From positions 1 through 22,583 of IMG/VR virus record IMGVR_UViG_3300042465_004244: 22,583 nucleotides of DNA. One strand, written 5' to 3'. Positions 1-19,972 of the stretch are shown here, piece after piece. Made by a program: the position numbers and the translations under genes. Source of the stretch: a virus. Each line of letters opens with the position of its first letter. Position 1 is the first letter of the stretch. Under the pieces are notes generated by a model that made no database searches, was not told the origin of the DNA, and saw nothing but the letters and a program-made list of their open reading frames with translations.

Positions 1-615
1 GATAAGACGATCATACTGAAGAGTGAGATGATGGTTGATAGCGTAAAAGTGCAAGAGCGCGTAGACCAACTTTGGGAGGCCGCTAAGACAGTCAAACGTA
101 AATCTGATAAGGATCACTTACTTGAGCGCATTGCGTCGCTCACAGGAGGCATAGGTGTGATCTACGTAGGCGGGCAGACTGACCTAGAGCAGAAGGAATT
201 ATATGACAGGGTTGACGATGCAGTATGTGCAGTACGATCAGCTTTGGAAGAGGGTATATTAGCGGGTGCAGGCAAGGCATTACTTGAAGAGAGTGCTGAG
301 CTAATGATCCCTGCGGATTGCAGCAATGAGTACTTGGCTGCTTATTACATTGTGAGCAACGCATTGATGGCTCCGTTCCAACAGATCTTGGCAAATGCCG
401 GTCTGAAGCCAAGTGAGATATACAAAGATGGTGTTCCTGTCGGTCATGGGTACAACCTAAAGACGAGAGAGATGGGTGACTTGATTAAGATGGGGGTTAT
501 TGACCCATTGAAGGTAACACGCTCAGCATTGCAGAACGCAGTGAGTGTAGCTGTTACGATACTTAGTACTAACGCGATCATTACGATGGCAAGAAGTTAT
601 GACACACGTGACTAA
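1..615 (+). CDS. groL: GroEL-like chaperonin, C-terminal part (5' end outside window)
   Basis: Chaperonin 60 subunit; in the family it forms ATP-driven rings that fold proteins in the cytoplasm. The reading frame is open from base 1 and the first codons (DKTIIL) already align with the DTTTII segment of GroEL, so the ATGs at 28-33 are internal and the gene begins upstream of the window. Visible landmarks are RIASLTGGIGVIYVGG, RVDDAVCAVRSALEEG, and MGVIDPLKVTRSALQNA, all hallmarks of the second half of GroEL (intermediate and equatorial domains). The second Asp of RVDDA (codon 217-219) matches the catalytic Asp398 of E. coli GroEL. Two oddities: the normally GGG nucleotide-contact triplet reads GAG (ILAGAGKAL), and the protein stops soon after the last helix (ending SYDTRD) with no GGM-repeat tail. 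It overlaps the next gene by 17 bases. Identity is firm; a phage rather than host origin is inferred from the neighbours. Confidence 0.93.
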   Translation, partial: DKTIILKSEMMVDSVKVQERVDQLWEAAKTVKRKSDKDHLLERIASLTGGIGVIYVGGQTDLEQKELYDRVDDAVCAVRSALEEGILAGAGKALLEESAELMIPADCSNEYLAAYYIVSNALMAPFQQILANAGLKPSEIYKDGVPVGHGYNLKTREMGDLIKMGVIDPLKVTRSALQNAVSVAVTILSTNAIITMARSYDTRD

Positions 616-850
616 ACGACAAGAAATTGAGGAGGTCTTCCAAGGGGAGGATCTTCTCTTTGCTGATGGGTATGATGAGGCAATCATTGGTATTGACAAC
701 AATGGCCGCATCGTGTATGACGCAAGTAAAGTAATTGACTGCTTGGTAGAGCAAGGTATGGATGAGGATGAGGCGATTGAGTTTTATGAGTTTAATGTAT
801 CAGGTGCTTATGTTGGAGAGAATACTCCGATCTTTGTGACGGTATTTTAA
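599..850 (+). CDS. Conserved small phage protein, unknown function (83 aa)
   Basis: An acidic 83-residue protein beginning inside the end of the GroEL-like gene. The segments DEAIIGID, GMDEDEAIEFYEFNVSGAYVGENTP resemble a small protein found in many unrelated tailed phages, in which an aliphatic GID or GIE strand is followed by an EAxEFFEFN helix and a GENTP turn; I recall no assigned function. No signal peptide or membrane segment is visible. Its stop overlaps the next start (TAATG), indicating translational coupling in the groEL to groES operon. The length fits this family and the start is the only ATG upstream of the conserved block. Being a real gene is near certain; the role is open. Confidence 0.85.
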   Translation: MTHVTKRQEIEEVFQGEDLLFADGYDEAIIGIDNNGRIVYDASKVIDCLVEQGMDEDEAIEFYEFNVSGAYVGENTPIFVTVF

Positions 851-1023
851 TGATACATGTCTACCCCGTAAACGATACAGACAGCCACGATTTATACAGC
901 ACGACATGCCACTGCATGCCAAAGGTTACTTTTGAGAATGGTGAGATGCTTGTAGTCCACAATAGTTTTGATGGGCGCGAGATCTTGGAGATGGTAAATG
1001 AGATATTAGAAAACAAAAAATGA
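850..1023 (+). CDS. Small His/Cys-containing conserved phage protein (57 aa)
   Basis: A 57-residue reading frame that fills the gap between the 83-residue protein and groES. It starts in a TAATG overlap and ends in an ATGA overlap with groES, which is strong evidence that it is translated. The protein begins MIHVYPVND and carries H13, C20, H21, C22 and H37, with a C-terminal block VVHNSFDGRE. The closely spaced Cys and His residues could hold a metal ion, but this is only a guess from the pattern. The HNSFDGRE ending resembles small proteins seen in other Bacteroidota phages, without known function. No membrane segment. Confidence 0.75.
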   Translation: MIHVYPVNDTDSHDLYSTTCHCMPKVTFENGEMLVVHNSFDGREILEMVNEILENKK

Positions 1024-1277
1024 AAGCGATAGGTAAAAATATTGTAATTCGTCCGATTGACGAAGAGGTAAAGACCGCATCAGGGATAATCCTGTCAGGT
1101 GAAGATACAAATCAGCTGCGCTATAAGCGTGGATTGGTAATTACTCCGGGTACTGAGGTGAATGCTATACAGGAAGGTGACGAAATCTACTACGATAAAG
1201 CAAATAGTTACACCATGATCATCAATGACGAGCAACATTCGATCATTCAGGAACGTGATGTAGTAGTTGTTCTTTAA
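1020..1277 (+). CDS. groS: GroES-like co-chaperonin (85 aa)
   Basis: Co-chaperonin 10 family, the heptameric lid that caps GroEL and closes the folding chamber. The N-terminal MKAIGKNIVIRPIDEEV matches the GroES first strand (IRPLxDRVxV). The segment TASGIILSGED corresponds to the mobile loop, whose IVL-type hydrophobic tripeptide (here IIL) docks onto GroEL. It is followed by RGLVITPGTEV (GxVxAVG-like), an EGDEIYYDK turn (VGDxVxF-like) and a closing strand HSIIQERDVVVVL (ESDILAIV-like). At 85 residues it is somewhat shorter than bacterial GroES, which is usually about 95. The start overlaps the upstream gene as ATGA, so it is coupled to the groEL operon; the last 35 bases overlap the convergent minus-strand gene. 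A phage T4 gp31-like role in capsid folding is an inference. Confidence 0.92.
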   Translation: MKAIGKNIVIRPIDEEVKTASGIILSGEDTNQLRYKRGLVITPGTEVNAIQEGDEIYYDKANSYTMIINDEQHSIIQERDVVVVL

Positions 1278-1704
1278 TTTTGTTCTTTTTAGTGTGCGCA
1301 TTCATGGTTTTAATCATGTTGCGGTACACTTTATCGCTATAACTCACATTCTTTTTGAACATAGGGTTGTTTTCTGCGGTCATTGGGATCTCTTCGCCGG
1401 ATAATTTCTTATAGATAGACGTTATCATACGCTTACCCTTGTATGATAAGTTGTATAAGCCCCTTGATCTTGGCCTATGCTTCCTAAAATTTTCAATCCA
1501 CCCTTCTTCAAGCAGTCTATTAAACCGTCCGGCATCCCATGCCACCAATTCTGAGAACTCTTTGAACTTTAATTTTGAGAAGTAGTCTTCTGTGTAGAGG
1601 AACAGGAGCATATCTAGGTCTGCTTGAGTAAGATTATACTTAATCTTTACGTACTGTCTTATTACCCTCCAATATTTTAGGCAGTCATTTATATTTGATT
1701 TCAT
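1243..1704 (-). CDS. Winged-helix-like putative regulator (153 aa), only minus-strand gene
   Basis: A basic protein of 153 residues when started at the ATG complementary to 1702-1704; a longer in-frame extension to 1842 would run through the opposing genes and promoter and is rejected. Residues about 17-75 (LTQADLDMLLFLYTEDYFS, then FKEFSELVAWDAGRFNRLLEEGWI, then YNLSYKGKRMI) have the layout of a MarR-like winged helix: a helix-turn-helix containing the RFNRLLEEGWI recognition region, then a wing. The C-terminal part (EEIPMTAENNPMFKKN, SDKVYRNMIKTMN) is basic and resembles a family seen in other Bacteroidota or marine phages. A TATCTTTG box with an upstream TTG element sits just before the start. 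It probably binds DNA, perhaps its own divergent promoter region, but a specific target is not shown. Its 3' end overlaps groES by 35 bases. Confidence 0.82.
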   Translation of the reverse strand: MKSNINDCLKYWRVIRQYVKIKYNLTQADLDMLLFLYTEDYFSKLKFKEFSELVAWDAGRFNRLLEEGWIENFRKHRPRSRGLYNLSYKGKRMITSIYKKLSGEEIPMTAENNPMFKKNVSYSDKVYRNMIKTMNAHTKKNKIKEQLLHHVPE

Positions 1705-1709
1705 TTTAT

Positions 1710-1717
1710 TATATTTG
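1710..1717 (+). promoter_or_regulatory. TATATTTG -7-like box, rightward promoter
   Basis: TATATTTG fits TAnnTTTG and lies 18 bases before the ATG at 1736. The same eight bases recur before the genes at 2891 and 5267. A second TATATTTG is at 1690-1697. No clear TTG element stands upstream, so use may depend on a phage activator. The box abuts and interleaves with the minus-strand promoter at 1722-1729, so simultaneous occupancy by two polymerases seems impossible. Confidence 0.45.
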
Positions 1718-1721
1718 TCAT

Positions 1722-1755
1722 CAAAGATACAAAAAATGAAACCGTGTACACAAAA
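1722..1755 (-). promoter_or_regulatory. Bacteroidota-type promoter for the winged-helix gene
   Basis: Read on the minus strand, TATCTTTG (1729 to 1722) matches the Bacteroidota -7 consensus TAnnTTTG, and TTTTG (1755 to 1751) lies 21 bases upstream as a -33-type TTG element. The predicted start of transcription is around 1716, giving a leader of roughly 12 bases before the ATG at 1704. This is the only candidate promoter in the window with both elements. Confidence 0.6.
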
Positions 1756-1804
1756 GGTGAAGGCCGCAATGGTACTCAAACCTAAAAAATCCAAAGCAAA
1801 ATGA
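1736..1804 (+). CDS. Possible lysine-rich micropeptide (22 aa)
   Basis: A 22-codon frame starting MKPCTQKVKAAMVLKPKK and ending in an ATGA overlap with the next lysine-rich gene. It is the first ATG after the rightward promoter-like box and has an A-rich leader. Seven of its residues are lysine. The overlap and position favour translation, perhaps as a leader that couples to the next gene, but the length is too short for firm support. Confidence 0.35.
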   Translation: MKPCTQKVKAAMVLKPKKSKAK

Positions 1805-1941
1805 AAAATGTAAGTCAAGGTATGGCTATGGGCATGCCACAAGCGGCAGTATTAAAAGGTCCTGCAAAGAAAGCTGTAAAAACAGTAAAGAAAGCAGTAA
1901 AGAAAGTTGTTGCTATCAAAAAAGCAATGAAGAAAAAGTAA
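1801..1941 (+). CDS. Lysine/alanine-rich histone H1-like microprotein (46 aa)
   Basis: Starts MKNVSQGMAMGMPQAAV and continues as a repeated K-A-V-K pattern (KKAVKTVKKAVKKVVAIKKA) ending in MKKK. This is like the C-terminal tail of histone H1 and the Lys/Ala-rich histone-like proteins of many bacteria, which bind DNA through charge. The gene is coupled at both ends (ATGA upstream, TAATG downstream). A virion-internal or genome-condensing role is plausible for such a protein in a late phage operon but is inference only; a basic peptide that binds RNA or a membrane would look similar. Confidence 0.7.
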   Translation: MKNVSQGMAMGMPQAAVLKGPAKKAVKTVKKAVKKVVAIKKAMKKK

Positions 1942-2231
1942 TGGCTGACAAAGCTAAAATGAAATGTAACCGTCCTGTTCCATCCGATAGACCGGGGAAG
2001 AAGAAGATGGTAAAAGCCTGTTCCGGTGGAGAAGAAAAGCTTCTCCACTTCGGAGCAAAAGGTTATGGTAACAACTATAGCCCTGCAGCAAGGAAGAGTT
2101 TCAAGGCTAGACACAGTTGTGATACAGCTACTGATAAATTAACACCAAGATATTGGTCTTGTAAGAACCTATGGGCAGGACCCGGTGGATCTACTACAAG
2201 CAATCCTAAAAATCGTAAAGGAAAATACTAA
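1941..2231 (+). CDS. Conserved phage protein with CHC-like pattern (96 aa)
   Basis: A basic 96-residue protein with a central block that I associate with a widespread phage family of unknown function: LLHFGAKGYGNNYS, then AARKSFKARHSCDTATDKL, then TPRYWSCKNLW. Cysteines at 9, 27, 60 and 74 and His58 could bind zinc, although no standard finger spacing is present. The C-terminal GPGGSTTSNPKNRKGKY is likely disordered. It is joined to its neighbours by one-base TAATG overlaps on both sides. Basic charge and Cys/His content suggest nucleic-acid contact, which is inference. Confidence 0.83.
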   Translation: MADKAKMKCNRPVPSDRPGKKKMVKACSGGEEKLLHFGAKGYGNNYSPAARKSFKARHSCDTATDKLTPRYWSCKNLWAGPGGSTTSNPKNRKGKY

Positions 2232-2425
2232 TGAACAGAGATTACCCACTAGCACCTACAGTCTTTGGGGACAAAGAAACTAGGATGAAACGAAAAGCTG
2301 CCAATCAAGAAGACAGATCAATCAGAAAAGAAGAAAGAACTGAGTCTAAGGCTCAGAAGAAGATTGAGCGTAGTACAGGTCTTGAGTATGAGCCTCGCGT
2401 TAGAAAGCGCGACATGAAGATGTAA
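2231..2425 (+). CDS. Small highly charged protein, unrecognised (64 aa)
   Basis: A 64-residue protein with more than a third charged residues: MNRDYPLAPTVFGD, a long Lys/Arg/Glu helix (RMKRKAANQEDRS, KEERTESKAQKKIERS) and a basic end RVRKRDMKM. The start overlaps the previous stop by one base. I do not recognise a family. The composition predicts a soluble, partly helical, nucleic-acid- or protein-binding peptide. Nine bases separate it from the MazG-like gene. Confidence 0.65.
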   Translation: MNRDYPLAPTVFGDKETRMKRKAANQEDRSIRKEERTESKAQKKIERSTGLEYEPRVRKRDMKM

Positions 2426-2434
2426 AACTTTAAA

Positions 2435-2737
2435 ATGAAATATAATCAAATCGAATCTCTTGTCATCCAATGGGCTGACGAAAAAGGCATCCTCAAAAAA
2501 GGAAACCCTACCGCACAATGCGAGAAGACTAAAGAAGAAGTTGAGGAGTTAGCTGAAGCGATCCTGTTAAATGACAGAGAAGAAATTGCTGATGCACTAG
2601 GAGACATCATGGTAACTGTTATTATTCAGGCTCACATGCAGGGCATGTCTTTGATGGAGTGCTTGGAAGGTGCTTATGAAATTATTAGTAAGCGTCAAGG
2701 AAAGATGATCAATGGTACATTTGTAAAAAACTCATGA
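2435..2737 (+). CDS. MazG-like nucleotide pyrophosphohydrolase (100 aa)
   Basis: All-alpha NTP pyrophosphatase of the MazG superfamily, which cleaves nucleoside triphosphates (or ppGpp-like or modified nucleotides) to monophosphate and pyrophosphate using magnesium. The metal-binding pattern EExxE followed by ExxD is visible as E34-E35-V-E37-E38 and E50-I-A-D53, with D57 one turn on; the surrounding helices (ESLVIQWADEKGI, DIMVTVIIQAHMQGM, CLEGAYEIISKRQGKM) are typical of the single-domain phage form, which is about 100 residues long. Phage MazG proteins are thought to tune host nucleotide or alarmone pools during infection; the substrate here cannot be deduced. The next small gene begins inside its stop (ATGA). 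Placement in a structural-gene neighbourhood rather than with replication genes is slightly unusual. Confidence 0.88.
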   Translation: MKYNQIESLVIQWADEKGILKKGNPTAQCEKTKEEVEELAEAILLNDREEIADALGDIMVTVIIQAHMQGMSLMECLEGAYEIISKRQGKMINGTFVKNS

Positions 2738-2850
2738 AAGCAATAAAGAAAAAAGCAGCTAAGTATGAATCAAAGAAATCATTGGATGGTCCAATGAAAT
2801 TTTTGAAAGGTAATGTAAGCAAGGTAAAGACAAACAAAAAGAGTTTCTAA
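2734..2850 (+). CDS. Second lysine-rich microprotein (38 aa)
   Basis: A 38-residue frame with about 37 percent lysine (MKAIKKKAAKYESKKSL, then GPMKFLKGNVSKVKTNKKSF). Its ATG overlaps the MazG-like stop as ATGA, which argues for coupled translation. Composition matches the microprotein at 1801-1941 but the sequences are not clearly homologous. It could bind DNA or RNA; no function is assigned. Confidence 0.6.
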   Translation: MKAIKKKAAKYESKKSLDGPMKFLKGNVSKVKTNKKSF

Positions 2851-2857
2851 AGTTTAG

Positions 2858-2865
2858 TATATTTG
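2858..2865 (+). promoter_or_regulatory. TATATTTG -7-like box before the 134-aa gene
   Basis: TATATTTG within GTTTAGTATATTTGTTGAA, nearly the same context as the box at 5252 (GTTTACTATATTTGTTTAA). It begins 33 bases upstream of the ATG at 2891, in the first real intergenic gap after a run of overlapping genes. The leader between box and ATG ends in two TCAAA pentamers directly before ATGG. No TTG element is seen 19-21 bases upstream. Confidence 0.5.
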
Positions 2866-2890
2866 TTGAATAAAATTAAAATCAAATCAA

Positions 2891-3295
2891 ATGGCACAGA
2901 AAGTTGAAAAAAGTAATTCAGATTTATTGGACTTAGTTCGTAGTTTGAATATGACTCCCGCAGAAAAGGGAAGTAAAAAAGAAGCAAAGCTTAAAAAGAT
3001 TGCTGAGAAAGTAAAAGTATTGTTTGATGAGTATAATGAGAAGCGTGAGGACATTCGTCTTGACCATGCTCATACAGAGTCAAATGGTGTGTTGGACATG
3101 AATGAAAAGGGAGAATACAAGTTTACTAAGGATGGCATCAAAGCGATGGCTAAAGATATGAAAGCTCTTCTTGAAAAGAAGTTTGAGTTCTATCAGTTCA
3201 CCTTCTCTACAGAAGGAATTGAAGACTTAGAGTTTCTTGCAGGATGGGTTGAAAAGATTGAAGTTAAAGTTCAAGAAGAATTTACAGAAGAGTAA
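2891..3295 (+). CDS. Helical phage protein, unknown function (134 aa)
   Basis: A 134-residue, charged, mostly helical protein. It opens MAQKVEKSNSDLLDLVRSLN, has a Lys/Glu helix (KKEAKLKKIAEKVKVLFDEY), an exposed middle (LDMNEKGEYKFTKDGIKAMA) and an acidic end WVEKIEVKVQEEFTEE. The pattern of a long helix, a variable turn with NEKGEY, then a helix and an aliphatic-acidic strand recalls small phage proteins of the DUF1617 type, but I cannot confirm membership. It has its own promoter-like box and a leader shared with the scaffold gene, which suggests strong, late expression. An 82-base gap with a hairpin follows. Confidence 0.75.
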   Translation: MAQKVEKSNSDLLDLVRSLNMTPAEKGSKKEAKLKKIAEKVKVLFDEYNEKREDIRLDHAHTESNGVLDMNEKGEYKFTKDGIKAMAKDMKALLEKKFEFYQFTFSTEGIEDLEFLAGWVEKIEVKVQEEFTEE

Positions 3296-3321
3296 TTGGT
3301 TTGGTTTTCTGTTACTACAAT

Positions 3322-3351
3322 ATTGCACCGGCTTTCTATGGTCGGTGCAAT
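3322..3351 (+). terminator. Perfect 9-bp hairpin in the 3296-3377 gap
   Basis: ATTGCACCG (3322-3330) pairs perfectly with CGGTGCAAT (3343-3351) around a 12-base loop. It lies 27 bases after the stop of the 134-residue gene and before the next start. There is no downstream U-run (TGTTGAATAATT follows), so it is a weak intrinsic terminator at best; it may instead be an RNA processing or 3'-end stabilising stem. Confidence 0.45.
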
Positions 3352-3377
3352 TGTTGAATAATTAAAATTAAAAAACG

Positions 3378-3560
3378 ATGGCGATAAGTAAAGGTCTTGG
3401 CGATACGATAGAAAAAATAACCACAGCAACAGGAATAAAAAGTGTTGTTGAAGCTGTAAGTAAAGCAACAGGTGCGGGATGTGGTTGCTCAAAAAGAAAG
3501 GATGCTCTTAACCGTGCATTCCCATACGATGTTACTAAACAAATTAAAAAAATAGGTTAA
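3378..3560 (+). CDS. Small conserved CxC protein of Bacteroidota phages (60 aa)
   Basis: A 60-residue protein: MAISKGLGDTIEKITTATGI, then a helix VVEAVSKATG, then CGC (C35, C37) followed by KRKDALNRAFPY. The combination of GLGDTIEKIT with a CGCxxRKxxLNxxFPY block is one I recognise from many Bacteroidota phage and prophage genomes, always as a small protein of unknown function. The short amphipathic helices could insert at a membrane surface, and the CxC pair could bind metal or form a disulfide; neither is shown. It has an A-rich leader directly after the hairpin and is two bases from the next gene. Confidence 0.82.
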   Translation: MAISKGLGDTIEKITTATGIKSVVEAVSKATGAGCGCSKRKDALNRAFPYDVTKQIKKIG

Positions 3561-3562
3561 CA

Positions 3563-3820
3563 ATGGCATATCAAAAATTACAACCATCAAGAGCCTCAGT
3601 TGTTACGAAAAGTAACACTGTTGACATCCCTAACCCGGGCAACGGTCAAGTTGAAGGGTGTGTATTATACATCGGTACAGGAGGGATACTTCGTGTCCTT
3701 ACTGCCGGCGGAGATGATATCACTTTTACAAACATACCTAATGGGACATTTCTTCCCGTTCAAGTAATTAGAGTGTTCGCTTCAGATACGACAGCTCTTA
3801 ATATTATCGCACTATGGTAA
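3563..3820 (+). CDS. Small beta-rich putative virion protein (85 aa)
   Basis: An 85-residue protein predicted to be nearly all beta strand: VVTKSNTVDIPNP, CVLYIGTGGILRVLTAGG, ITFTNIPNGTFLPVQVIRVF, TALNIIALW. The run PNGTFLPVQVxRVFAxxTTA and the terminal IIALW match a small protein recurring near structural genes of marine and freshwater phages. A head-decoration, spike or connector role is suggested by fold and context only. No signal peptide or membrane helix. Confidence 0.8.
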   Translation: MAYQKLQPSRASVVTKSNTVDIPNPGNGQVEGCVLYIGTGGILRVLTAGGDDITFTNIPNGTFLPVQVIRVFASDTTALNIIALW

Positions 3821-3842
3821 TTGCTATAACAATACAGGTTCG

Positions 3843-4274
3843 ATGAAATATCTACAATACTTGCTAGCTTCTATTTTATTATTATTTGTACCTATCTATG
3901 GAATACTAATAGCTGTTGGAACCGCAATTATTCTTGACACATTTACAGGTGTATTTAAATCAATAAAACTTCATGGTTGGAAAAGTGTAAAAAGTAGAAA
4001 ATTGTCAAACATAGTAAGTAAAATGATGCTATATGAGATATGCATTCTTCTTCTTTTCGTAATAGATAAATTTGTGCTAAACGAATTTGTTAAGCATGTC
4101 TTTGGATTTGAATTTATGTTCACTAAGATATGTGCAATACTATTGATGTTTATTGAGTTAGTATCAGTAAAAGAAAATATTGAGGAGGCATTCAATATTG
4201 ATATTTGGAAAATGGTTAAGGGTGCTTTAAATAGAGCTAAAGAAATAAACTCTGATATAAAAGATATTAAATGA
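3843..4274 (+). CDS. Holin (phage holin family 4-like, 143 aa)
   Basis: Inner-membrane protein expected to open holes at the programmed time of lysis so that the endolysin can reach or be activated in the periplasm. Hydrophobic segments lie at residues about 5-31, 61-79 and 90-109. Between the first two is DTFTGVFKSIKLHGWKSV and a basic stretch KSRKLSNIVSKM, the pattern of the Phage_holin_4 family (Asp-x-x-Thr-Gly after the first helix, then a basic cytoplasmic loop). The C-terminal 30 residues are charged and cytosolic. The last four bases overlap the endolysin start (ATGA), the usual order for a lysis cassette. The assignment rests on family pattern and context. Confidence 0.85.
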   Translation: MKYLQYLLASILLLFVPIYGILIAVGTAIILDTFTGVFKSIKLHGWKSVKSRKLSNIVSKMMLYEICILLLFVIDKFVLNEFVKHVFGFEFMFTKICAILLMFIELVSVKENIEEAFNIDIWKMVKGALNRAKEINSDIKDIK

Positions 4275-4777
4275 AAGACAAACTCACATTAGAAAGAATA
4301 TCATATCTACATCCTAAGTTAAGGGAAGAGGCTATTGATATTTATGATGAGGTTGTGCTTGCTCTTACAGGTAAAGCAATTTGTAGATTCTCATTTACAT
4401 TCAGAACATTTGCTGAGCAAGATGCTTTATATGCTCAAGGAAGAAATAAGCCCGGAAGGATTGTAACTAATGCTAAAGGTGGTCAGTCATACCATAACTA
4501 TGGATTAGCTATTGACATAGCTTTATTGATAGATAAGGATGGAAATGGAACACATGAAACTGCAAGTTGGGATATTAAGACTGACTTTGATAAAGACGGC
4601 AAGTCTGATTGGCAAGAAATAGTTGCAATATTCAAGAGGTATGGTTGGTCTTGGGGAGGTGATTGGAAATTTCTTGATACTCCACATTTTCAAAAAACAT
4701 TTGGATACTCTATAATGCAATTGCAAAAACTACATAAAAATAATAAGGTTGATAAAAATGGATTTGTATTAATTTAA
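4271..4777 (+). CDS. Endolysin: M15-family L-alanyl-D-glutamate-type peptidase (168 aa)
   Basis: Zinc peptidase that cuts the stem peptide of peptidoglycan. The motif SYHNYGLAID gives zinc ligands H75 and D82, and DTPHF gives catalytic Asp136 and the third ligand H139; the spacings (7 between the first two ligands, 3 from Asp to His) equal those of the phage T5 L-Ala-D-Glu peptidase (H66, D73, D130, H133). WGGDW precedes the last motif, as in the family. Residues 105-116 (DFDKDGKSDWQE) have acidic ligands at positions 1, 3, 5, 9 and 12 with Gly at 6, like an EF-hand calcium loop; DKDGNG at 88-93 is a second acidic turn. T5 endolysin is known to be calcium-controlled. No signal peptide, so export depends on the holin. 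Confidence 0.93.
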   Translation: MKDKLTLERISYLHPKLREEAIDIYDEVVLALTGKAICRFSFTFRTFAEQDALYAQGRNKPGRIVTNAKGGQSYHNYGLAIDIALLIDKDGNGTHETASWDIKTDFDKDGKSDWQEIVAIFKRYGWSWGGDWKFLDTPHFQKTFGYSIMQLQKLHKNNKVDKNGFVLI

Positions 4778-4782
4778 CTTTC

Positions 4783-5238
4783 ATGTTGAAGTATATTATT
4801 TTAATATTTGCAATCTTGTTTTTTTCTTTCTGCTCATCAAAAAAGGTTTCTGTTTCAGAGAGTATTCTTAAAACAAAAACCGATAGTGTTTCTGATCTTA
4901 GAGAAGAGAAGAAAATTGTTCAAGAATATAAAATAAATATCAAGGAAGATCTACAGGAGATTCAACTTGTACCAATAGATACAACAAAGCCAATGGTTAT
5001 TGGCGGAAAAGAATATTTAAATACCACTATTAGAATTAAAAAAACAAAAAGAGAAATCATTGATACAACAAAAGTTATTGTATCAAGTTTGTTACAAAAA
5101 AAGGTAGAGGTAAAGAAGCAAAATAAACAAGAATCATTTATAAAATCTGTAGATAAAAAGCCTAGTTATTTTAATTTGTGGTGGCTGTTATTAATACCTT
5201 TGGTAGCATTTGGGGTAAAGCGTTACATTCTAAAATGA
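4783..5238 (+). CDS. Putative unimolecular spanin (151 aa)
   Basis: In Gram-negative phages spanins fuse the inner and outer membranes in the last step of lysis. This protein has the two-ended layout of a u-spanin: an N-terminal hydrophobic signal (residues 2-16) ending at C17 in FFSFCSSKK, a lipoprotein-like site, and one C-terminal membrane helix at about 131-145 (NLWWLLLIPLVAFGV) followed by KRYILK. The 100-residue middle is charged and partly coiled-coil or beta-like, as a periplasm-spanning segment should be. The lipobox is imperfect, with Phe at -1 where Ala, Gly or Ser is usual. It follows holin and endolysin directly, where Rz-type genes sit. Alternatively it may be an ordinary two-helix membrane protein. 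Confidence 0.68.
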   Translation: MLKYIILIFAILFFSFCSSKKVSVSESILKTKTDSVSDLREEKKIVQEYKINIKEDLQEIQLVPIDTTKPMVIGGKEYLNTTIRIKKTKREIIDTTKVIVSSLLQKKVEVKKQNKQESFIKSVDKKPSYFNLWWLLLIPLVAFGVKRYILK

Positions 5239-5251
5239 CAGCTATGTTTAC

Positions 5252-5259
5252 TATATTTG
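5252..5259 (+). promoter_or_regulatory. TATATTTG -7-like box directly before the first fibre gene
   Basis: TATATTTG in the context GTTTACTATATTTGTTTAA, shared with 2858-2865. Only seven bases separate the box from the ATG at 5267. If it acts as a -7 element, transcription would begin within a few bases of the start codon, giving a leaderless or nearly leaderless fibre mRNA. No -33 TTG element is visible. Confidence 0.45.
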
Positions 5260-5266
5260 TTTAACC

Positions 5267-9776: not shown

Positions 9777-12700
9777 ATGGCAAATTTATCAACGATAGCA
9801 GGTAACATCTTTGCAGATAGTGGGATTGATCCTATTAATGTAGTATTAAATACAGGATCATATTCTAATCCGGCATGGATTACGGCTTTGTCATGGACTA
9901 AAATTTCAGATAGACCTACTACGCTTGCGGGGTATGGGATTTCTGATGCGGTACCATCTTCAAGAACGCTTACTATTAATGGTACAAGTTATGACTTGAG
10001 TGCTAACAGAAGTTGGACAATAGCGGCAGGAGTATCTTCAATTATTGCAGGAACGGGCATCTCCGTTTCAGGATCAGGTAATATTACCGTTACAAACACC
10101 GGTGTGCTTTCCATTAATGGATCTACAGGTGCTATAACAGGAATAATAACTACTAGCAACTACAACTCTTATTCACCTACATTAATAGGAGGTGGTGCAA
10201 GTGGGACTTGGGGAATAAATATTACAGGAACAGCAGGGTCTATCTCAGGATTTAATAATCCAACTACTTCTCCTACAGGAAATACAATAGTATATCGTGA
10301 TCCTAATGGTTATGTTTTTGGTAATTATATAAACATGACAGATGATGGTAATCCGGGGAGTGGAACTGCAATCACTTCATTCATTACTAAACAAGGAGAT
10401 AATTATTATCGTGCTGTATCTCCTACAAATGCAATGGTGTCAATACGAGGAGTTGCATCAGGATCTTGGGGTATCAGTATTACAGGTAATTCATCAAATA
10501 TTACCGCATATACGATTAACCAAAATCTTAGTACAACGAGTTCGCCATCATTTAGTGAGTTAAATTTAGGATATAGTTTACACGTAAATACAGCAAACAA
10601 TGCTGCAAGTGCAAGTGGTGGTATAACTTTATGGGGGGGAGGTGATACAACAACATCATATCTTGGATTTAAAAATTCAACGAGTAGTGGATGGGGTGTA
10701 CATGGAGCTATTGCTGCAGGTGAATATGCTACATATTTTGTGATGGATACCATTACAAGAGGTTGGATTTTTAGATACGCTAATGTTGGTGGGGGTGATT
10801 TTTCAGGAACAAATGTTGCATCAATTTCTAATACAGGAGTTATAACAGCTTCATCTTTTGTTGGTGCTCTAACAGGTACAGCAACAGGAAATGTTGTTTC
10901 AAGAATATATTCAAATTGGAATGACAATACTGTAATTAATAATGTTGTAGGTTTATTAGCATGGAAAAATTATAATAATAGTCATGTTATTTTTGACGCT
11001 TCAGCAGGCATTTCTCCAAATGGAACAAGTGTAAATCAAACTAACGCTCAAAATGCATGGGTTGGAACATTTCCTACATTAATGGGGTGGAATGGAGCAG
11101 GTACTTATGGTGTTCGTGTAGATAGTGCAAGAGTAGCAGATAACATCACAGCATATACAATTAATCAAAGTGTTGGTACAGGAAATTCACCAACATTTGT
11201 TAATCAAGTCCTTAGCGGTAGATTAAATTTTGGCACAAACGGTGCTACCCCATATCTTGATGCAACCGGAACAAGTTCCGGAATTTCATTTGGTGGATGG
11301 GAATCTTCTTCATTGAGGCAGTACGGGGTTTTTACAGAATTGGAAAATGTTGGCGGCAACTATTCTAAACTAACACTTAATTGGCATACAGGCATTAGAA
11401 TAGGAGCCTCTCCATTATATGGAGGAACTAGATTTTATAATGACGCAGCAGGAAATGGTAGTAGTACTATGATATTTTCTGTTGGCAATGGAGATAGCAA
11501 TGTGCGTGTAGCAAATACTTTATTTATCAGTGGTAACACAGCTTTGCATGCAGGGAATTATAATTCTTATGCTCCTACTCTAACAGGAGGAGGAGCAAGT
11601 GGGACTTGGGGAATTAGCATTACAGGTAGTGCAGGGTCAGCAAGCTCGGCATCTACTGCAGGGACTGTTACTCATAATGCATCAAGAACTGATAGTGCTT
11701 GGTATAATGCAGTATGGGCTGCAGGTACGCCATCTCCAATGTACTCATGTGATGCGGTTCAAATACAATCTAATACAGGTTCAATAAGGGCTAATATTTT
11801 TTATGACAATCAGGACACAGCATATTACTTAAATCCTAATAACACTACTTTTTCTGCTGTATTAAGCGGAACAATAAGATTAGAAGCAGGGGCGTTTGGT
11901 ACAAACTCTCGTTCACCATCATCACAAGGACCTATTTCAAGAACTTTTGCTCCACAAGGAGCAGCCAACTCTTTTCAAGGAGGCAATGTTACAGGTTCTA
12001 TAAAAATTAGATTGCCATTTAGAGCAAATGATTGTATGTGGTCTATGAAAATTAGAATATATGAATATACTAATAATGCTACATCAGAATATACTATAGG
12101 TAACTATTCATATTCTGCAGGTGCATATCATAGAGGAGCTTATTATATGGGGGGGACGGGGTCTATACCTCAAACAGTTAGATTTGGGAATGATGGTACT
12201 TATGATTGTGTTTGGATTGGAGAAACTAGTTATACATGGAGCCATCCTGTTGTGGGGGTTGTTGATTTTATGGGGGGTTATGTAAGATGTGATGTTGCTA
12301 CAGTTGCAAATAATTGGGATGTAACATTTGTAACATCTTTTGGTACTATTGGTGATTCAGTTACCCCATCAATTAGATTTAGTGATGTATATGCTAGTTC
12401 ATTATACTCTGCAGGAAATGCTGTAATTACAACTGCTAATATTGGTTCTCAATCGGTAAGTTTTGCAAACACTGCAAGTAGAGCATATTATTCACTTGAT
12501 GGTTTTATAAATACAGGTACTCACGCAGTTACATATATTCAAAATGAATTACCTGCCGCAAATAATGGAGCAGGAACAGGAAGAGTTGTATTAAGGCAAT
12601 GGTGTTCTGAACCGGGAGTTAGTTGGGATTATGCAGGTTTTGGATATAATGTTGAGAATGACGGTGGGTCCCCCGGTGGATTTGGAAGATTTAACGGAAG

Positions 12701-13136
12701 CTTTGGGCAAGCATATATGAGAATGTCTCCTTCAGGGGATTGGTATTTTTATAATACAAATACATCAGGCACTAGATATTCAACTATGCATTTAACAAGT
12801 GCAGGAAATGCAAGTTTTGGTGGATCTATTACAGCATCAGGTGATGTAACAGCTTATTCAGATATTCGCATAAAGAAAAATATTGAAACCATTGCAGGTG
12901 CTTTAGATAAAGTAATAGCCCTTAGAGGTGTTTACTATAATAGAACTGACAATGGCGATACTACTCAAAAGCTTGGAGTTATTGCTCAGGAAATACAAAA
13001 AATATTACCTCAAGTAGTAAATGAAAATTCAGATGGAATGCTTAGTGTTTCTTATGGGAATATTGTAGGTGTTTTAATTGAAGCCATCAAAGAGCAACAA
13101 ACTCAAATTGAGGAATTAAAAAAATCAATTAACTAA
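9777..13136 (+). CDS. Tail fibre with C-terminal S74 intramolecular chaperone domain (1119 aa)
   Basis: A second large fibre or spike protein. The N-terminal 90 residues include a 52-residue module shared with the first fibre and one LTING unit. The middle is repetitive: GGGASGTWGIxITGxAGS occurs twice (near 10190 and 11585) and ITAYTINQ twice; a FYDNQDTAYYLNPN element near 11795 is common in phage fibres. Residues 1028-1119 form a Peptidase_S74 domain: SDIRIKKNIE, ALDKVIALRGVYYN, KLGVIAQEIQKILPQVV, SVSYGNIVGVLIEAIKEQ. Ser1028 and Lys1033 are spaced like the Ser911/Lys916 dyad of endosialidase, so the domain should assist trimer folding and then cut itself off. G7 tracts lie at 10633-10639 and 12149-12155. 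The stop overlaps the next start by one base. Confidence 0.92.
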   Translation: MANLSTIAGNIFADSGIDPINVVLNTGSYSNPAWITALSWTKISDRPTTLAGYGISDAVPSSRTLTINGTSYDLSANRSWTIAAGVSSIIAGTGISVSGSGNITVTNTGVLSINGSTGAITGIITTSNYNSYSPTLIGGGASGTWGINITGTAGSISGFNNPTTSPTGNTIVYRDPNGYVFGNYINMTDDGNPGSGTAITSFITKQGDNYYRAVSPTNAMVSIRGVASGSWGISITGNSSNITAYTINQNLSTTSSPSFSELNLGYSLHVNTANNAASASGGITLWGGGDTTTSYLGFKNSTSSGWGVHGAIAAGEYATYFVMDTITRGWIFRYANVGGGDFSGTNVASISNTGVITASSFVGALTGTATGNVVSRIYSNWNDNTVINNVVGLLAWKNYNNSHVIFDASAGISPNGTSVNQTNAQNAWVGTFPTLMGWNGAGTYGVRVDSARVADNITAYTINQSVGTGNSPTFVNQVLSGRLNFGTNGATPYLDATGTSSGISFGGWESSSLRQYGVFTELENVGGNYSKLTLNWHTGIRIGASPLYGGTRFYNDAAGNGSSTMIFSVGNGDSNVRVANTLFISGNTALHAGNYNSYAPTLTGGGASGTWGISITGSAGSASSASTAGTVTHNASRTDSAWYNAVWAAGTPSPMYSCDAVQIQSNTGSIRANIFYDNQDTAYYLNPNNTTFSAVLSGTIRLEAGAFGTNSRSPSSQGPISRTFAPQGAANSFQGGNVTGSIKIRLPFRANDCMWSMKIRIYEYTNNATSEYTIGNYSYSAGAYHRGAYYMGGTGSIPQTVRFGNDGTYDCVWIGETSYTWSHPVVGVVDFMGGYVRCDVATVANNWDVTFVTSFGTIGDSVTPSIRFSDVYASSLYSAGNAVITTANIGSQSVSFANTASRAYYSLDGFINTGTHAVTYIQNELPAANNGAGTGRVVLRQWCSEPGVSWDYAGFGYNVENDGGSPGGFGRFNGSFGQAYMRMSPSGDWYFYNTNTSGTRYSTMHLTSAGNASFGGSITASGDVTAYSDIRIKKNIETIAGALDKVIALRGVYYNRTDNGDTTQKLGVIAQEIQKILPQVVNENSDGMLSVSYGNIVGVLIEAIKEQQTQIEELKKSIN
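9861..10016 (+). repeat. 52-codon module shared between the two fibre genes, copy in fibre 2
   Basis: Encodes YSNPAWITALSWTKI, then RPTTLAGYGISDAV, then an LTING unit ending ANRSW. It is the partner of 6245-6400, with many synonymous differences. Confidence 0.85.
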
Positions 13137-14451: not shown

Positions 14452-15014
14452 TGCAGTCGCCGTTTAACTTTATAGTTAGGCCTTTGAATGGGTCTAGGTA
14501 TAACAATACTCAAGAGATAAATGGACTTGAATTAATTGTAAATACATCAGAAGAAGATCATGCATACTCAAATAGGTATGCTGAAGTAATTGAGGTACCA
14601 TACAAGTATTCAGGTCCAATTAAGATTGGAGATACTCTTCTCGTGCACCATAATGTATTTAAGTTTTACAATGACATTAAGGGAAGGCAGAAGAGTGGTC
14701 GTAGCTTTTTCAGAGACGATGTGTTCTTGATCGACGAGGATCAATTCTTTATGTACAAGCAAGATGGCAAGTGGAATACTTATGACCGTTATTGTTTCGT
14801 TAGACCTATCAGTGCAATTGACTCTTACATTAAGAAGCCATTTACGAATGAGCCACTTATGGGGGAGATGGTCTATCCTAATGAGTATTTGTTGAAGCAA
14901 GGTGTAAAGGCCGGTGATAAAATATCATTTAAGCCTGACAGTGAGTATGAATTTGAGGTAGATGGAGAGAAGCTTTATCGAATTTTTGATCATCAAATTA
15001 CTATGGTATTATGA
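14451..15014 (+). CDS. Putative tandem GroES-like co-chaperonin (187 aa)
   Basis: The first half reads like GroES: FIVRPLNGSRY (IRPLxDR strand), NGLELIVNTSEEDHAYSNRY (mobile-loop position with a hydrophobic LELI in place of IVL), AEVIEVP (GEVLAVG), IKIGDTLLVHHNVFKFY (VKVGDxVIF) and FLIDEDQFFMYK. The second half repeats the order more loosely: CFVRPI, LMGEMVYPN, GVKAGDKISFKPDSEYEF and VDGEKLYRIFDHQITMVL. That would make it two cpn10 folds in one chain, as in plastid Cpn20. A GroES-type role in folding capsid or packaging proteins is suggested by its place just before the terminase genes. Identification is by eye and needs a profile search; an unrelated beta-barrel phage protein remains possible. 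It overlaps its neighbours by 1 and 4 bases. Confidence 0.55.
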   Translation: MQSPFNFIVRPLNGSRYNNTQEINGLELIVNTSEEDHAYSNRYAEVIEVPYKYSGPIKIGDTLLVHHNVFKFYNDIKGRQKSGRSFFRDDVFLIDEDQFFMYKQDGKWNTYDRYCFVRPISAIDSYIKKPFTNEPLMGEMVYPNEYLLKQGVKAGDKISFKPDSEYEFEVDGEKLYRIFDHQITMVL

Positions 15015-15334
15015 GAGACATCAAAGAAATAAAACTAAGGATCATTGAGGCCGGATACAAAGCTGTTGATCAGTTAATAAAGGTTGCAGAGGAAGAAGTA
15101 TTGAAGGGTGGAGGAGTAAAGATTAACAGCAAAGGTGAGGAAGAACACTCCGAACTTGCGGCAGATAGATTAAAGAATGCTGCTGCTACTAAAAAAATAG
15201 CGATATTTGATTCCTTTGAGATACTTAATAAAATTGAGTCAGAGAGAGAGTCTCTTGAAATGTCCGATAATGGTATTGATAAAGTAAAAACAAAACAAGG
15301 GTTTGCAGAACGAAAGTCTATATCAAGTCGTTAA
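15011..15334 (+). CDS. Small terminase subunit candidate (107 aa)
   Basis: A charged, helical 107-residue protein: MRDIKEIKLRIIEAGYKAVD, a helix with AEEEVLKGGGV, a central helix ELAADRLKNAAATKKIAIFD, then SFEILNKIESERESLE and a basic end QGFAERKSISSR. Its place directly upstream of, and 32 bases overlapping, the terminase large subunit is the usual location of the small subunit, which recognises viral DNA. No clear helix-turn-helix is visible, so the call is positional. The long overlap and non-ATG start of the next gene suggest coupled translation of the two. Confidence 0.5.
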   Translation: MRDIKEIKLRIIEAGYKAVDQLIKVAEEEVLKGGGVKINSKGEEEHSELAADRLKNAAATKKIAIFDSFEILNKIESERESLEMSDNGIDKVKTKQGFAERKSISSR

Positions 15335-17540
15335 AGACTATGTGCCACAGAATGCCATTTCTAATAAGAATGGTATTAGATCTTGGGCTTATGGTTATAA
15401 TGAGAAGTATGATATGATCGTTATCTCTAAGACAGGACAGATCGGAGATATAATAAACATACAAGGATTGATCATTGCTCTTCCGCCGGCACCAAAAGAT
15501 TGTTACTCAAGAAGTACCGTCAAGGCTGATCAGCATTGGGAGCGCAAGCCTTATCCAAAAGAACTATCTAAGATCCAATCAATATTCCAATGGAATGATA
15601 AGCCTGTTGAGTTCAAGAACAGATGGGTAGATTACATTGAGCAAGAGTTTGATTACCGTGAGCTTGGTTATTGGTTTATGAATAATGGTACGCCTACCTA
15701 TATCACAGGATCTCACTATATGTATTTGCAGTGGTCTAGTATTGATATTGGGTATGCTGACTTTCGTGAAGCCAATCGAGTATATTGGATTTTTTGGGAA
15801 GCATGCAAGGCAGACAACAGATCCTATGGTATCATCTACTTAAAGATTAGACGTTCCGGTTTTTCTTTTATGTCATCGTCAGAGTGTATCAATATAGCTA
15901 CTCTAGCAAGTGATGCGAGGGTTGGCATCTTGTCTAAGACAGGATCAGATGCCAAGAAGATGTTCACTGATAAGGTGGTTCCTATTAATACTAGGCTTCC
16001 ATTCTTCTTCCGTCCGGTAATGGATGGTATGGATAGACCTAAGACTGAACTTGCTTACCGTGTTCCCGCATCTAAAATCACTAAAAAGAATATGGTGCTC
16101 AACGATGACGATGAAGTTGAAGGACTTGATACCTCAGTCGATTGGAAGAACACTGAGGACAACTCGTATGATGGTGAGAAGCTTGTATTCCTAGCTCATG
16201 ATGAAAGTGCAAAGTGGATTAAACCAAATAATATTCTGAATAATTGGCGTGTTACCAAAACATGTTTGCGTCTTGGTGCTAAAATCATTGGTAAGTGTAT
16301 GATGGGGTCTACTTCAAATGCGTTAAGCAAGGGTGGAGACAACTACAAAAAACTGTACGAAGATTCTCTAGTTACTAGAAGAAATAAAAACGGGCAAACT
16401 AAAAGCGGGCTTTACTCATTATTCATTCCTATGGAGTGGAATATGGAAGGCTTCATTGATCTGTATGGTATGCCTGTGTTTAGAAAGCCCGATACGCCTA
16501 TCAAAGGAGTCGATGGTGCCATGATCGCAAACGGAGCTATAGATTATTGGGAGGCAGAAGTTGACTCGCTTAAAGACGATGCTGATGCGTTGAATGAATT
16601 TTACCGTCAGTTTCCAAGAACAGAAAGCCATGCCTTTAGAGATGAGAGTAAGCAGGCTTTATTCAGCTTGACTAAGATTTATCAGCAGATAGACTTTAAT
16701 GACTCTCAGATCAATGGTCAACTTGCTACTCGTGGATCATTCCATTGGAAGGATGGCGAGCAGGATACTAAAGTGATATGGACACCGGATCAACGCGGAC
16801 GATTTCTTGTGAGTTGGTTTCCTCCTCCGAATATGCAGAATAATGTACAAGGAAGGAATGGAGCAAAGTATCCCGGCAATGAACACTTAGGCAGTTTTGG
16901 TTGCGACTCATACGATATATCAGCGGTTGTTGATGGCAGAGGATCTAATGGTGCACTGCATGGTCAGACAAAGTTTCACATGGATGATGCTCCAACTAAT
17001 CAGTTCTTCCTAGAATATATTGCTCGTCCTCAAACGGCTGAGATATTTTTTGAGGAAGTATTAATGGCTTGCGTATTTTATGGTATGCCAATGCTCGCGG
17101 AGAATAACAAAGCAAGGTTACTATACCATTTTAAAAATAGAGGCTATCGTGCTTTCTCTCTTAACCGTCCGGATAGGCCAACGAATAAACTAAGCAGAAC
17201 TGAGAAAGAGTTGGGAGGAATACCAAACTCATCAGAAGATATTAAGCAGGCACACGCCTCCGCTATACACACATACGTTGAGAAATATGTAGGCTATGAT
17301 CAATCAGGACAGTACAGGGATTCTGATGAAATAGGATCAATGCCGTTCACAAAGACTCTTGAAGATTGGGCTAAATTCGATATAAACAACCGAACAAAAC
17401 ACGATGCTTCCATTAGTTCAGGATTAGCTATAATGGCAAATCAAAAACACGTATATTTACCTGAGAAAAAAGAATCAAAAATTAGCATTAGTTTTGCAAG
17501 ATACACTAATAGTGGAACACAAAGTCAACTCCTTAAATGA
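15303..17540 (+). CDS. terL: Terminase large subunit (745 aa, TTG start)
   Basis: ATP-driven motor and nuclease that packages DNA into the prohead through the portal. The ATPase has a variant Walker A, LKIRRSGFS (180-188), and Walker B LVFLAHDES with D300 and E301, preceded by a 115-residue loop. The nuclease domain has acidic residues in FGCDSYD (D535), FFEEV (E584/E585) and a late SSEDIKQAH (D646), in the RNase H-like order. A stop at 15285-15287 blocks upstream extension and the first in-frame ATG is residue 38, which would lose conserved sequence (YVPQNAISNKNGIRSWAYGY), so TTG at 15303 or GTG at 15342 must be the start. The ATGA at the end overlaps the portal gene. Length and motifs are like terminases of Bacteroidota podovirus-type phages. 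Confidence 0.92.
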   Translation: MQNESLYQVVKDYVPQNAISNKNGIRSWAYGYNEKYDMIVISKTGQIGDIINIQGLIIALPPAPKDCYSRSTVKADQHWERKPYPKELSKIQSIFQWNDKPVEFKNRWVDYIEQEFDYRELGYWFMNNGTPTYITGSHYMYLQWSSIDIGYADFREANRVYWIFWEACKADNRSYGIIYLKIRRSGFSFMSSSECINIATLASDARVGILSKTGSDAKKMFTDKVVPINTRLPFFFRPVMDGMDRPKTELAYRVPASKITKKNMVLNDDDEVEGLDTSVDWKNTEDNSYDGEKLVFLAHDESAKWIKPNNILNNWRVTKTCLRLGAKIIGKCMMGSTSNALSKGGDNYKKLYEDSLVTRRNKNGQTKSGLYSLFIPMEWNMEGFIDLYGMPVFRKPDTPIKGVDGAMIANGAIDYWEAEVDSLKDDADALNEFYRQFPRTESHAFRDESKQALFSLTKIYQQIDFNDSQINGQLATRGSFHWKDGEQDTKVIWTPDQRGRFLVSWFPPPNMQNNVQGRNGAKYPGNEHLGSFGCDSYDISAVVDGRGSNGALHGQTKFHMDDAPTNQFFLEYIARPQTAEIFFEEVLMACVFYGMPMLAENNKARLLYHFKNRGYRAFSLNRPDRPTNKLSRTEKELGGIPNSSEDIKQAHASAIHTYVEKYVGYDQSGQYRDSDEIGSMPFTKTLEDWAKFDINNRTKHDASISSGLAIMANQKHVYLPEKKESKISISFARYTNSGTQSQLLK

Positions 17541-19972
17541 AAGATGTTGTAGTTAACATATCCGATACAAGTTTTCCTAATCAGTTTGTAACTGATGCAG
17601 AGAAAGCTTCTGATCAATTTGGTTTACAAGTTGGTCAAGCTATTCAATACGAATGGTTTAGAAAAGACGGCAATCAATGTCGCTACTATAGTCAGTGGCG
17701 TGATTTCCATCGTTTACGATTATATGCTCGTGGTGAACAGTCTGTTCAGAAATACAAGAACGAGTTAGCCGTAGATGGTGACTTGTCTTATCTAAACTTA
17801 GATTGGACACCTGTCCCTATTCTGCCAAAGTTTGTTGACATTGTAGTGAATGGAATGTCTGATCGTTTGTTTAAGGTTAAGGCCTATGCACAGGATGCAA
17901 TGTCTCAAGCTAAGCGAAGTAAGTATCAAGATATGATCGAGGGGCAAATGGCCTCTAAAGAAATCATGGCAGAAATTCAAGCAGCAACAGGGATCAATAC
18001 ATTTACAATGGACCCTGATGAGTTGCCGGAGACTGATGAAGAATTATCACTCTACATGCAGCTTAACTATAAGCCTGCTATTGAGATCGCTGAAGAAGAA
18101 GCCATCAATACTACCTTTGATGAGAATCATTACCAAGATACACGTAAGAGAACAGACTATGATATTACTACTATTGGTATTGGTGTTAGCAAGCATGAGT
18201 TTCTTCCCGGAGCAGGAGTAAAGATTTCTTATGTAGATCCTGCTAATATAGTTTACAGCTATACTGAGGATCCATACTTTAAAGATTGTTTTTATTGGGG
18301 TGAAATTAAAACACTTCCAATAACAGAACTATTAAAAATTGATCCAACAATTACCAATGAGCAATTGGCTGAGATCTCTAAGTACTCTCAAAGTTGGTAT
18401 GACTATTACAATATTGCTCAGCTTTACGAGAACAGTATGTTCAGTCGTGATACTGCAACCTTGCTATACTTCAACTATAAGACCACCAAGAAGATGGTCT
18501 ATAAGAAAAAGATTCTTGAAGGAGGTAATACTCGTGTGATCGAAAAGGATGATACGTTTAACCCACCTGCTGAGATGATGGAGGAAGGTAAGTTCGAGAA
18601 AATTGAGAAGACTATTGATGTATGGTATGAAGGTGTAATGGTTATGGGAACTAATATCTTGATCAAGTGGCAGATGATGGAGAACATGGTTAGACCTAAG
18701 TCCACTGCTCAACATGCATTACCAAATTATGTAGCCGTTGCACCAAGAATGTACAAGGGTGTTATTGAATCTCTTGTTCGCAGGATGGTTCCTTTTGCTG
18801 ATTTAATTCAGTTGACTCACTTGAAGCTACAGCAGGTTATTGCTCGCGTAGTTCCTGATGGTGTATTTATTGATGCTGATGGGATCAATGAGGTTGACTT
18901 GGGTACAGGAGCAGCTTACAATCCGGAGGATGCATTAAGACTTTACTTCCAAACAGGTAGTGTAATAGGTCGAAGCTATACTCAAGATGGAGAGTTTAAC
19001 AATGCTAGGATTCCTATTCAGCAACTGAGCTCAAACTCAGGCGCAGGAAAGACTCAAATGCTTATAGCCAACTACAATCACTACCTTGATATGATCAGGT
19101 CTGTGACGGGCTTAAATGAAGCGAGAGATGGATCGACTCCTGACTCAAATGCATTGGTTGGTGTACAGAAACTTGCAGCATTAAACTCCAATACAGCAAC
19201 TCGCCATATTCTTGAGGGTGGCTTGTTCTTGTTTAGGTCTCTTGCTGAGGCGATCACTTATAGGATTGCTGATATTTTAGAGTATGCAGATTTCAAAGAT
19301 GACTTCGCAAATAAAATAGGTAAGTACAATGTCTCTATCTTAAATGATATTAAGGACTTATACATCTATGACTTTGGGGTATTCATTGAGATCTCTCCTG
19401 ATGAAGAGCAAAGAGCACAGCTTGAGGCAAACATTATGATGGCTTTATCTAAGGGAGATATTAATCTTGAGGATGCCATTGATATACGTGAGCTTAGAAA
19501 CTTAAAGTTAGCTAATCAACTATTAAAGGTTAAGCGTGTAAAGAAGCAGGACAGAGAAGAAAAGCTTGGCATGCAAAAGCAGGCGATGCAAGCTCAACAG
19601 CAGATGCAATCACAACAACTTGCTGCTCAAACAGCTATGCAACAATTGCAAATGGAGTCACAGACTAAGATGCAGTTGAAGCAAGCAGAGACCGCATTTG
19701 CTATTGAGAAGATGAAGGCAGAGGCAGATCTTAAACGTATGCTTATGGCAGAAGAGTTTAAGTATCAAATGCAGATCGCAGGAATCAAGGAAACATCTCT
19801 TGCAGGTCGCGAAGAAATGAAAGAGGATTCAAAGGCTAAGCGTATTAGTCAACAGAATACTGAGCAATCAAAACTTATCAATCAGAGGAAAAATAATTTA
19901 CCTCCATTAAGTTTTGAGTCTAATGAAGACACGCTTGATGGCTTTGACTTTGCCGAATTTAATCCTCGATAA
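17537..19972 (+). CDS. Portal protein (811 aa)
   Basis: Ring protein at the capsid vertex through which DNA enters and leaves. The gene follows terL with a four-base overlap and precedes the scaffold-like and capsid genes, the standard order. Recognisable stretches are SLVRRMVPFADLIQLTHLKL, NEVDLGTGAAYNPEDALRLY, and RSVTGLNEARDGSTPDSNAL followed by GVQKLAALNSNTATRHIL, which I associate with large portals of Bacteroidota phages. Residues about 665-765 are a Gln/Met-rich coiled coil (QKQAMQAQQQMQSQQLAAQ and following), typical of the C-terminal barrel or tail of long portals. The end is acidic (DTLDGFDFAEFNPR). At 811 residues it is at the large end for portals. Confidence 0.88.
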   Translation: MKDVVVNISDTSFPNQFVTDAEKASDQFGLQVGQAIQYEWFRKDGNQCRYYSQWRDFHRLRLYARGEQSVQKYKNELAVDGDLSYLNLDWTPVPILPKFVDIVVNGMSDRLFKVKAYAQDAMSQAKRSKYQDMIEGQMASKEIMAEIQAATGINTFTMDPDELPETDEELSLYMQLNYKPAIEIAEEEAINTTFDENHYQDTRKRTDYDITTIGIGVSKHEFLPGAGVKISYVDPANIVYSYTEDPYFKDCFYWGEIKTLPITELLKIDPTITNEQLAEISKYSQSWYDYYNIAQLYENSMFSRDTATLLYFNYKTTKKMVYKKKILEGGNTRVIEKDDTFNPPAEMMEEGKFEKIEKTIDVWYEGVMVMGTNILIKWQMMENMVRPKSTAQHALPNYVAVAPRMYKGVIESLVRRMVPFADLIQLTHLKLQQVIARVVPDGVFIDADGINEVDLGTGAAYNPEDALRLYFQTGSVIGRSYTQDGEFNNARIPIQQLSSNSGAGKTQMLIANYNHYLDMIRSVTGLNEARDGSTPDSNALVGVQKLAALNSNTATRHILEGGLFLFRSLAEAITYRIADILEYADFKDDFANKIGKYNVSILNDIKDLYIYDFGVFIEISPDEEQRAQLEANIMMALSKGDINLEDAIDIRELRNLKLANQLLKVKRVKKQDREEKLGMQKQAMQAQQQMQSQQLAAQTAMQQLQMESQTKMQLKQAETAFAIEKMKAEADLKRMLMAEEFKYQMQIAGIKETSLAGREEMKEDSKAKRISQQNTEQSKLINQRKNNLPPLSFESNEDTLDGFDFAEFNPR

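Follow-up and report, generated by a model that had tools for sequence, protein, structure and literature searches.

A phage GroEL/GroES pair and a tandem co-chaperonin-like gene beside the terminase

Phage T4 encodes gp31, a co-chaperonin devoid of roof loops that acts together with GroEL in folding the capsid protein gp23 (PMC6318259). The phages EL, OBP and AR9 instead encode GroEL-like proteins that need no co-chaperonin (PMC5934643, PMC9598537). Some phages carry both GroEL and GroES (PMC7185714). GroEL was reported in 2017 in the phi38:1 group (PMC5332604), and a GroEL/GroES pair has been reported in the Maribacter phage Panino (PMC11590407). In chloroplasts, Cpn20, which consists of two GroES-like domains head to tail, forms mixed lids with the single-domain Cpn10 (7ekq; PMC5780408, PMC4242682).

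Here we analyse the whole of an IMG/VR record, 22,583 bases long (the window). It encodes the 3' part of a groEL gene, a groES gene and, 13 kb away, a protein that looks like two GroES domains in tandem. With moderate confidence, we favour a group I chaperonin that is dedicated to the phage and depends on GroES, closed by a lid of the gp31 type and, late in infection, by a Cpn20-like lid for virion proteins. The host probably belongs to the Bacteroidota, since cultured relatives infect Flavobacterium and Cellulophaga.

A sequence-only reading of the window had called a full GroEL/GroES pair in a phage uncommon. In this phage group we find it to be the rule. A pattern scan returned at least 598 stretches with related GroELs, and in all of the best 80, which we used, GroES lies downstream of GroEL on the same strand, at a distance of 0 to about 3.5 kb. 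The pair is also annotated in Flavobacterium phage elemo, Cellulophaga phage phi38:1 and Calle_2. Hence, the phage pair is of a known kind, and the tandem co-chaperonin is the less-noticed variant.

Gene content of the window and its relatives

The left edge of the window truncates the GroEL frame (Table 1). Two contigs extend across this edge: L002 differs at a single base over positions 1-6612, and L003 is identical over positions 1-4966. L002 contains a complete, unbroken groEL of 533 amino acids (L002:5014-6615), preceded by small phage-type ORFs that lie mostly on the opposite strand. The recovered upstream sequence thus reveals an intact gene and not the 3' remnant that the sequence-only reading had allowed for.

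That reading had also placed two small phage genes between GroEL and an 85-residue GroES, and the Pfam and PHROG matches bear this out. Neighbouring frames overlap: the first small gene shares 17 bases with the end of groEL, and groES starts before the second small gene stops. The shared strand and the overlapping ends are consistent with one transcript. Relatives of the phrog_13182 gene occur near groEL/groES in many, not all, related loci. Convergent with groES lies an ORF with a weak match to transcriptional regulators; at the equivalent position of the MW202828 record a 'repressor protein' is annotated.

Table 1. Features of the window, in window coordinates
Feature	Position	Strand	Matches and remarks
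groEL, 3' part, 204 codons	1..615	+	Pfam Cpn60 6.7e-26; PHROG 5725 'chaperonin groEL' 5.5e-47
Small phage gene, phrog_13182	599..850	+	PHROG 7.6e-26; function unknown
Small phage gene, phrog_2864	850..1023	+	PHROG 5.3e-12; function unknown; overlaps groES start
groES, 85 aa	1020..1277	+	Pfam Cpn10 5.3e-11; PHROG 3188 7.9e-14
ORF, 199 aa	1243..1842	-	phrog_12817 4.8e-05; phrog_17028 3.4e-12
Tail fibre	9777..13136		Peptidase_S74 domain (intramolecular fibre chaperone) at the C terminus; one more built-in aid to folding
Tandem co-chaperonin-like gene, 187 aa	14451..15014	+	PHROG 13932 'co-chaperonin GroES' 2.3e-27; AlphaFold2 model
Small gene between tandem gene and terminase	15011..15334	+	ORF; no match in family profile searches
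Terminase large subunit	15303..17542	+	PHROG 6681 4.8e-171
Portal protein	17537..19972	+	PHROG 6547 4.7e-149; Pfam P22_portal 5.2e-09
Virion structural protein, 473 aa	21155..22576	+	PHROG 13704 'virion structural protein' 7.5e-105

Three named phages share this gene set to different degrees. Caudoviricetes sp. ctfjg026 (MW202828) has the same layout, with groeL, chaperonin 10 and a terminase-adjacent tandem gene. Identity to the window is about 58% for GroEL, about 65% for GroES, 70% for the tandem protein and 75% for the terminase. Unlike in the window, its groEL and groES are direct neighbours, with neither of the two small genes in between, and its tandem protein is annotated as hypothetical. 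Flavobacterium phage elemo (Elemovirus) possesses a GroEL (gp43), a GroES without a roof (gp44) and, directly before the terminase, a 'co-chaperonin GroES' (gp30). However, its GroEL is only 36% identical to that of the window and its tandem protein 36%, and groEL-groES sit midway through the tail region, encoded on the other strand. Elemovirus terminases are about 45% identical to that of the window.

In Cellulophaga phage phi38:1 (Pervagoviridae), a small gene separates the genes for GroEL (gp005) and Cpn10 (gp007), and a tandem gene (gp089) precedes the terminase. Here, in contrast to the window, groES comes before groEL; the GroEL is 36% identical. The record annotates gp089 (L303:4001-4585) as hypothetical and leaves it unrecognised as a co-chaperonin. 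We find a Cpn10 domain in its C-terminal half (Pfam 2e-06).

The tandem co-chaperonin-like protein

The tandem protein is predicted to consist of two GroES-like domains head to tail, domain 1 at about residues 1-105 and domain 2 at about 106-187. Its AlphaFold2 model (pLDDT 77.5, pTM 0.73) shows the set of GroES-like strands twice. Among PDB chains, the model matches best 7ekq_R, a Cpn20 co-chaperonin subunit from Chlamydomonas (2.8e-05), followed by single Cpn10s. A viral structure library yields a full-length match, the 'chaperonin cpn10' of Cellulophaga phage phi18:3. Because identity to 7ekq_R is only 13% over the structural match and the phage protein may have arisen separately from plastid Cpn20, we call it Cpn20-like and not Cpn20. 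A mixed lid is known from the plastid system; for the phage it is a proposal.

Domain 2 is GroES-like by profile comparison (96.8%). For domain 1, profile comparison with GroES of cells and of phages and with domain 2 returned nothing, and Pfam Cpn10 was not found in domain 1 from three lineages. When domain 1 is modelled alone (pLDDT 70.8), the top 13 fold matches are all GroES/Cpn10 chains, with E values of 0.02-0.2. We consider domain 1 GroES-like with moderate, not strong, confidence, the evidence being the predicted structure.

The tandem protein matches 85 phage records. In the database records that we examined it is labelled cpn10, co-chaperonin GroES or hypothetical. The gene is located just before terminase and portal in four lineages: MW202828, Elemovirus, phi38:1 and the Baltiviruses phi13:2/phi19:3. 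The small gene between the tandem gene and the terminase has a counterpart in the same position in MW202828 and phi13:2. Within the window clade, 17 of 20 contigs with GroEL carry the tandem gene, including 16/16 of 59 kb or more; conversely, GroEL occurs on 11 of the 12 long contigs that carry the tandem gene. The complete genomes of phi13:2 and phi19:3 have two Cpn10 matches each and no Cpn60 match. In this small sample both co-chaperonins look more widely kept than GroEL.

The two co-chaperonins of phi13:2 are encoded at L301:4001-4603 and L304:2088-2336. The loop in domain 2 of its tandem protein, LIYIPED, is host-like, and to judge from this motif the protein may serve the host GroEL.

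In the literature covered by our searches, the tandem GroES architecture is not described for phages; a 2017 paper by Marine et al. on virioplankton chaperonins may bear on its novelty.

Alternatively, GroEL and the 85-aa GroES could be complete by themselves, with the tandem protein acting as a head-assembly or packaging factor that retains only the GroES fold. The position of its gene, always beside terminase and portal and away from groEL, fits such a role. Domain 1 fits it too, with its lack of a detectable GroES sequence signal and a low-confidence stretch of the model (residues 74-83) that is absent from GroES. In elemo, domain 2 of the tandem protein is without a clear mobile loop. However, domain 2 is GroES-like by profile, and domain 1 retains a conserved G-I-E-x-I loop (G25 in 39/40 sequences, I29 in 40/40). 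In structure, the protein comes closest to a genuine co-chaperonin. Furthermore, the GroEL-less Baltiviruses keep the tandem protein together with a second Cpn10, as expected of a pair of lids for the host GroEL. We regard the assembly factor as a serious contender but an unlikely one.

The GroEL/GroES pair

The complete GroEL aligns end to end with E. coli GroEL at 36% identity and has a Cpn60 fold over its full length. We compared 74 full-length members of its clade with 32 cellular GroELs, of which 30 represent the phylum to which a Bacteroidetes MAG belongs and two come from other MAGs. The residues for ATP binding and hydrolysis (D52, D87, D398 and D495, E. coli numbering) and their loops are kept in all 74 clade members. 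One regular change affects the nucleotide site: G415, the middle position of the GGG triplet, is alanine in 72/74 clade members and in 0/32 cellular GroELs. In MW202828 it remains glycine. The window GroEL ends in SYDTRD, without GGM. All 74 clade members lack the C-terminal tail and stop just past the last equatorial strand, whereas the cellular set has tails; tail loss is also common in the other phage GroELs sampled. The sequence-only reading was thus right about the missing tail, the GAG triplet and the retention of the catalytic Asp (D398). All three characterize the whole clade, and GAG is not the oddity of a single phage for which it had been taken.

The apical groove differs from cellular GroELs as well. 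L234 is replaced by E or D in 72/74 clade members, and the clade also has Y203 to L/M, V263 to A/S and V264 to A, at positions that are invariant in the 32 cellular sequences. In E. coli GroEL, L234 contacts both substrate and GroES, so an acidic side chain there could weaken binding, a point against the GroES-dependent chaperonin that we favour.

The GroES of this clade is uniform: 84 of 85 homologues are exactly 85 amino acids long. Aligned with E. coli GroES, every listed one of the 85 homologues has a gap in place of the roof hairpin. The mobile loop is kept in the window GroES, and G22, L25, R34 and Y35 are present in 85/85 homologues. Not all such phages have lost the roof; the GroES of immuto retains it. 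Since both the apical groove and the mobile loop differ from their cellular counterparts yet are conserved within the clade, their sequences suggest a pair that recognises itself. Our guess is that the invariant R34 and Y35 contact the acidic position 234 of GroEL.

The absence of roof loops is shared with T4 gp31 (PMC6318259). Unlike the window GroES, gp31 partners the host GroEL, consists of one domain whose mobile loop is longer, and belongs to a different sequence family: the window GroES matches phrog_931 only at E 0.016, compared to 7.9e-14 for phrog_3188. At most, the window GroES would work like gp31.

If the chaperonin acted lid-free or as a single ring, as in EL, OBP and AR9, GroES would be a separate tool for the host GroEL. 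Besides the precedent of these three phages, whose GroEL-like proteins are also phage-encoded, contact residues of the window clade favour this idea: the apical positions differ from E. coli GroEL, and so do inter-ring positions in most clade members (R452 to Q, E461 to K, V464 to D/E and K105 to E). However, GroES follows GroEL in all of the best 80 of the at least 598 stretches, and the window GroEL shares only 22-26% identity with AR9 and the EL-like protein but 36% with E. coli GroEL. A lid-free chaperonin is therefore improbable.

The window GroEL shares 33-37% identity with the cellular set and 34-38% with most of the other phage GroELs. A tree groups every clade member with seven MAG-binned sequences, apart from all cellular GroELs and not inside one host genus, the placement that the sequence-only reading had taken as the sign of a host fragment or assembly join. 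The placement of the EL-like, AR9 and phi14:2 GroELs in this tree is unreliable because of long branches. By sequence, the window GroEL belongs to a phage lineage of its own. Its close relatives in the genome collection (60-67% identical) are found only on four MAG contigs, which are probably binned phage DNA because they are small and come from unrelated bins. A host GroEL fragment, a remnant gene or an assembly join, which the cut of groEL at the contig edge might suggest, has practically no chance of being correct: it is ruled out by the two contigs that span the edge with 0-1 mismatches, the whole groEL on one of them, the phage-type genes upstream, the separate clade and the restriction of close relatives in the collection to those four contigs.

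A MAG titled Aliivibrio sp. Ust_30 (G002, including L255, L257 and L260-L264) has nine Cpn60 matches, several of them tail-less and phage-like; these contigs are probably phage DNA binned into the MAG. The short or unannotated records OR848861 and OR846590 ('Listeria phage' and 'Enterococcus phage') contain GroELs of about 35% identity and are possibly contaminants.

A chaperonin with two candidate lids

In the reading that we favour, a chaperonin dedicated to the phage and dependent on GroES, the 533-aa GroEL would form an ATP-driven group I chaperonin, a single or a double ring, with an intact nucleotide pocket. The phage GroES would act as its lid, with the mobile loop retained and the roof hairpin lost. 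With GroEL tail and GroES roof both gone, the cage would be trimmed at the floor and at the roof. Tail loss, as read from the sequence, could plausibly enlarge the chamber. Because both ends are trimmed, the chamber probably offers more room or is less closed, much as T4 gp31 alters the host chamber.

The tandem protein, encoded with the packaging and head genes, would then serve as an alternative lid. It may also enter a mixed lid, in which three double and one single GroES make seven domains, matching the seven GroEL subunits. Because they are 13 kb apart, groEL-groES and the tandem gene need not be made together. We infer that the second lid would fold virion proteins late in infection, with timing, clients and lid composition conditional on this model. 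One candidate client is the 473-aa virion structural protein, from its position likely the major capsid protein. An ordinary cage could hold a protein of this size, which counts against our explanation. The more specific proposal of a mixed, pseudo-sevenfold lid of single-domain and tandem GroES, plastid-like but separately arisen, that closes a tail-less and roofless cage and folds virion proteins is tentative, and we consider it doubtful in this full form.

The sequence-only reading had proposed a self-contained folding machine for capsid or fibres. The part that stands is an intact GroEL/GroES pair owned by the phage. The proposed machine was incomplete, however, since the tandem co-chaperonin was overlooked; the clade-wide loss of the GroES roof was absent from that reading too. 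The words 'self-contained' and 'for capsid or fibres' were interpretive.

The GroEL/GroES pair alone adds little to what is known, because hundreds of viral contigs carry one. The tandem co-chaperonin lies beside the terminase in four lineages and is kept in two complete phages that lack GroEL. With elemo, phi38:1 and phi13:2 there is a cultured and tractable set of phages in which to ask why one virus would need a second lid, whether lids of the Cpn20 type have more than one origin, and to what extent the cage of a chaperonin can be remodelled to suit virion proteins.
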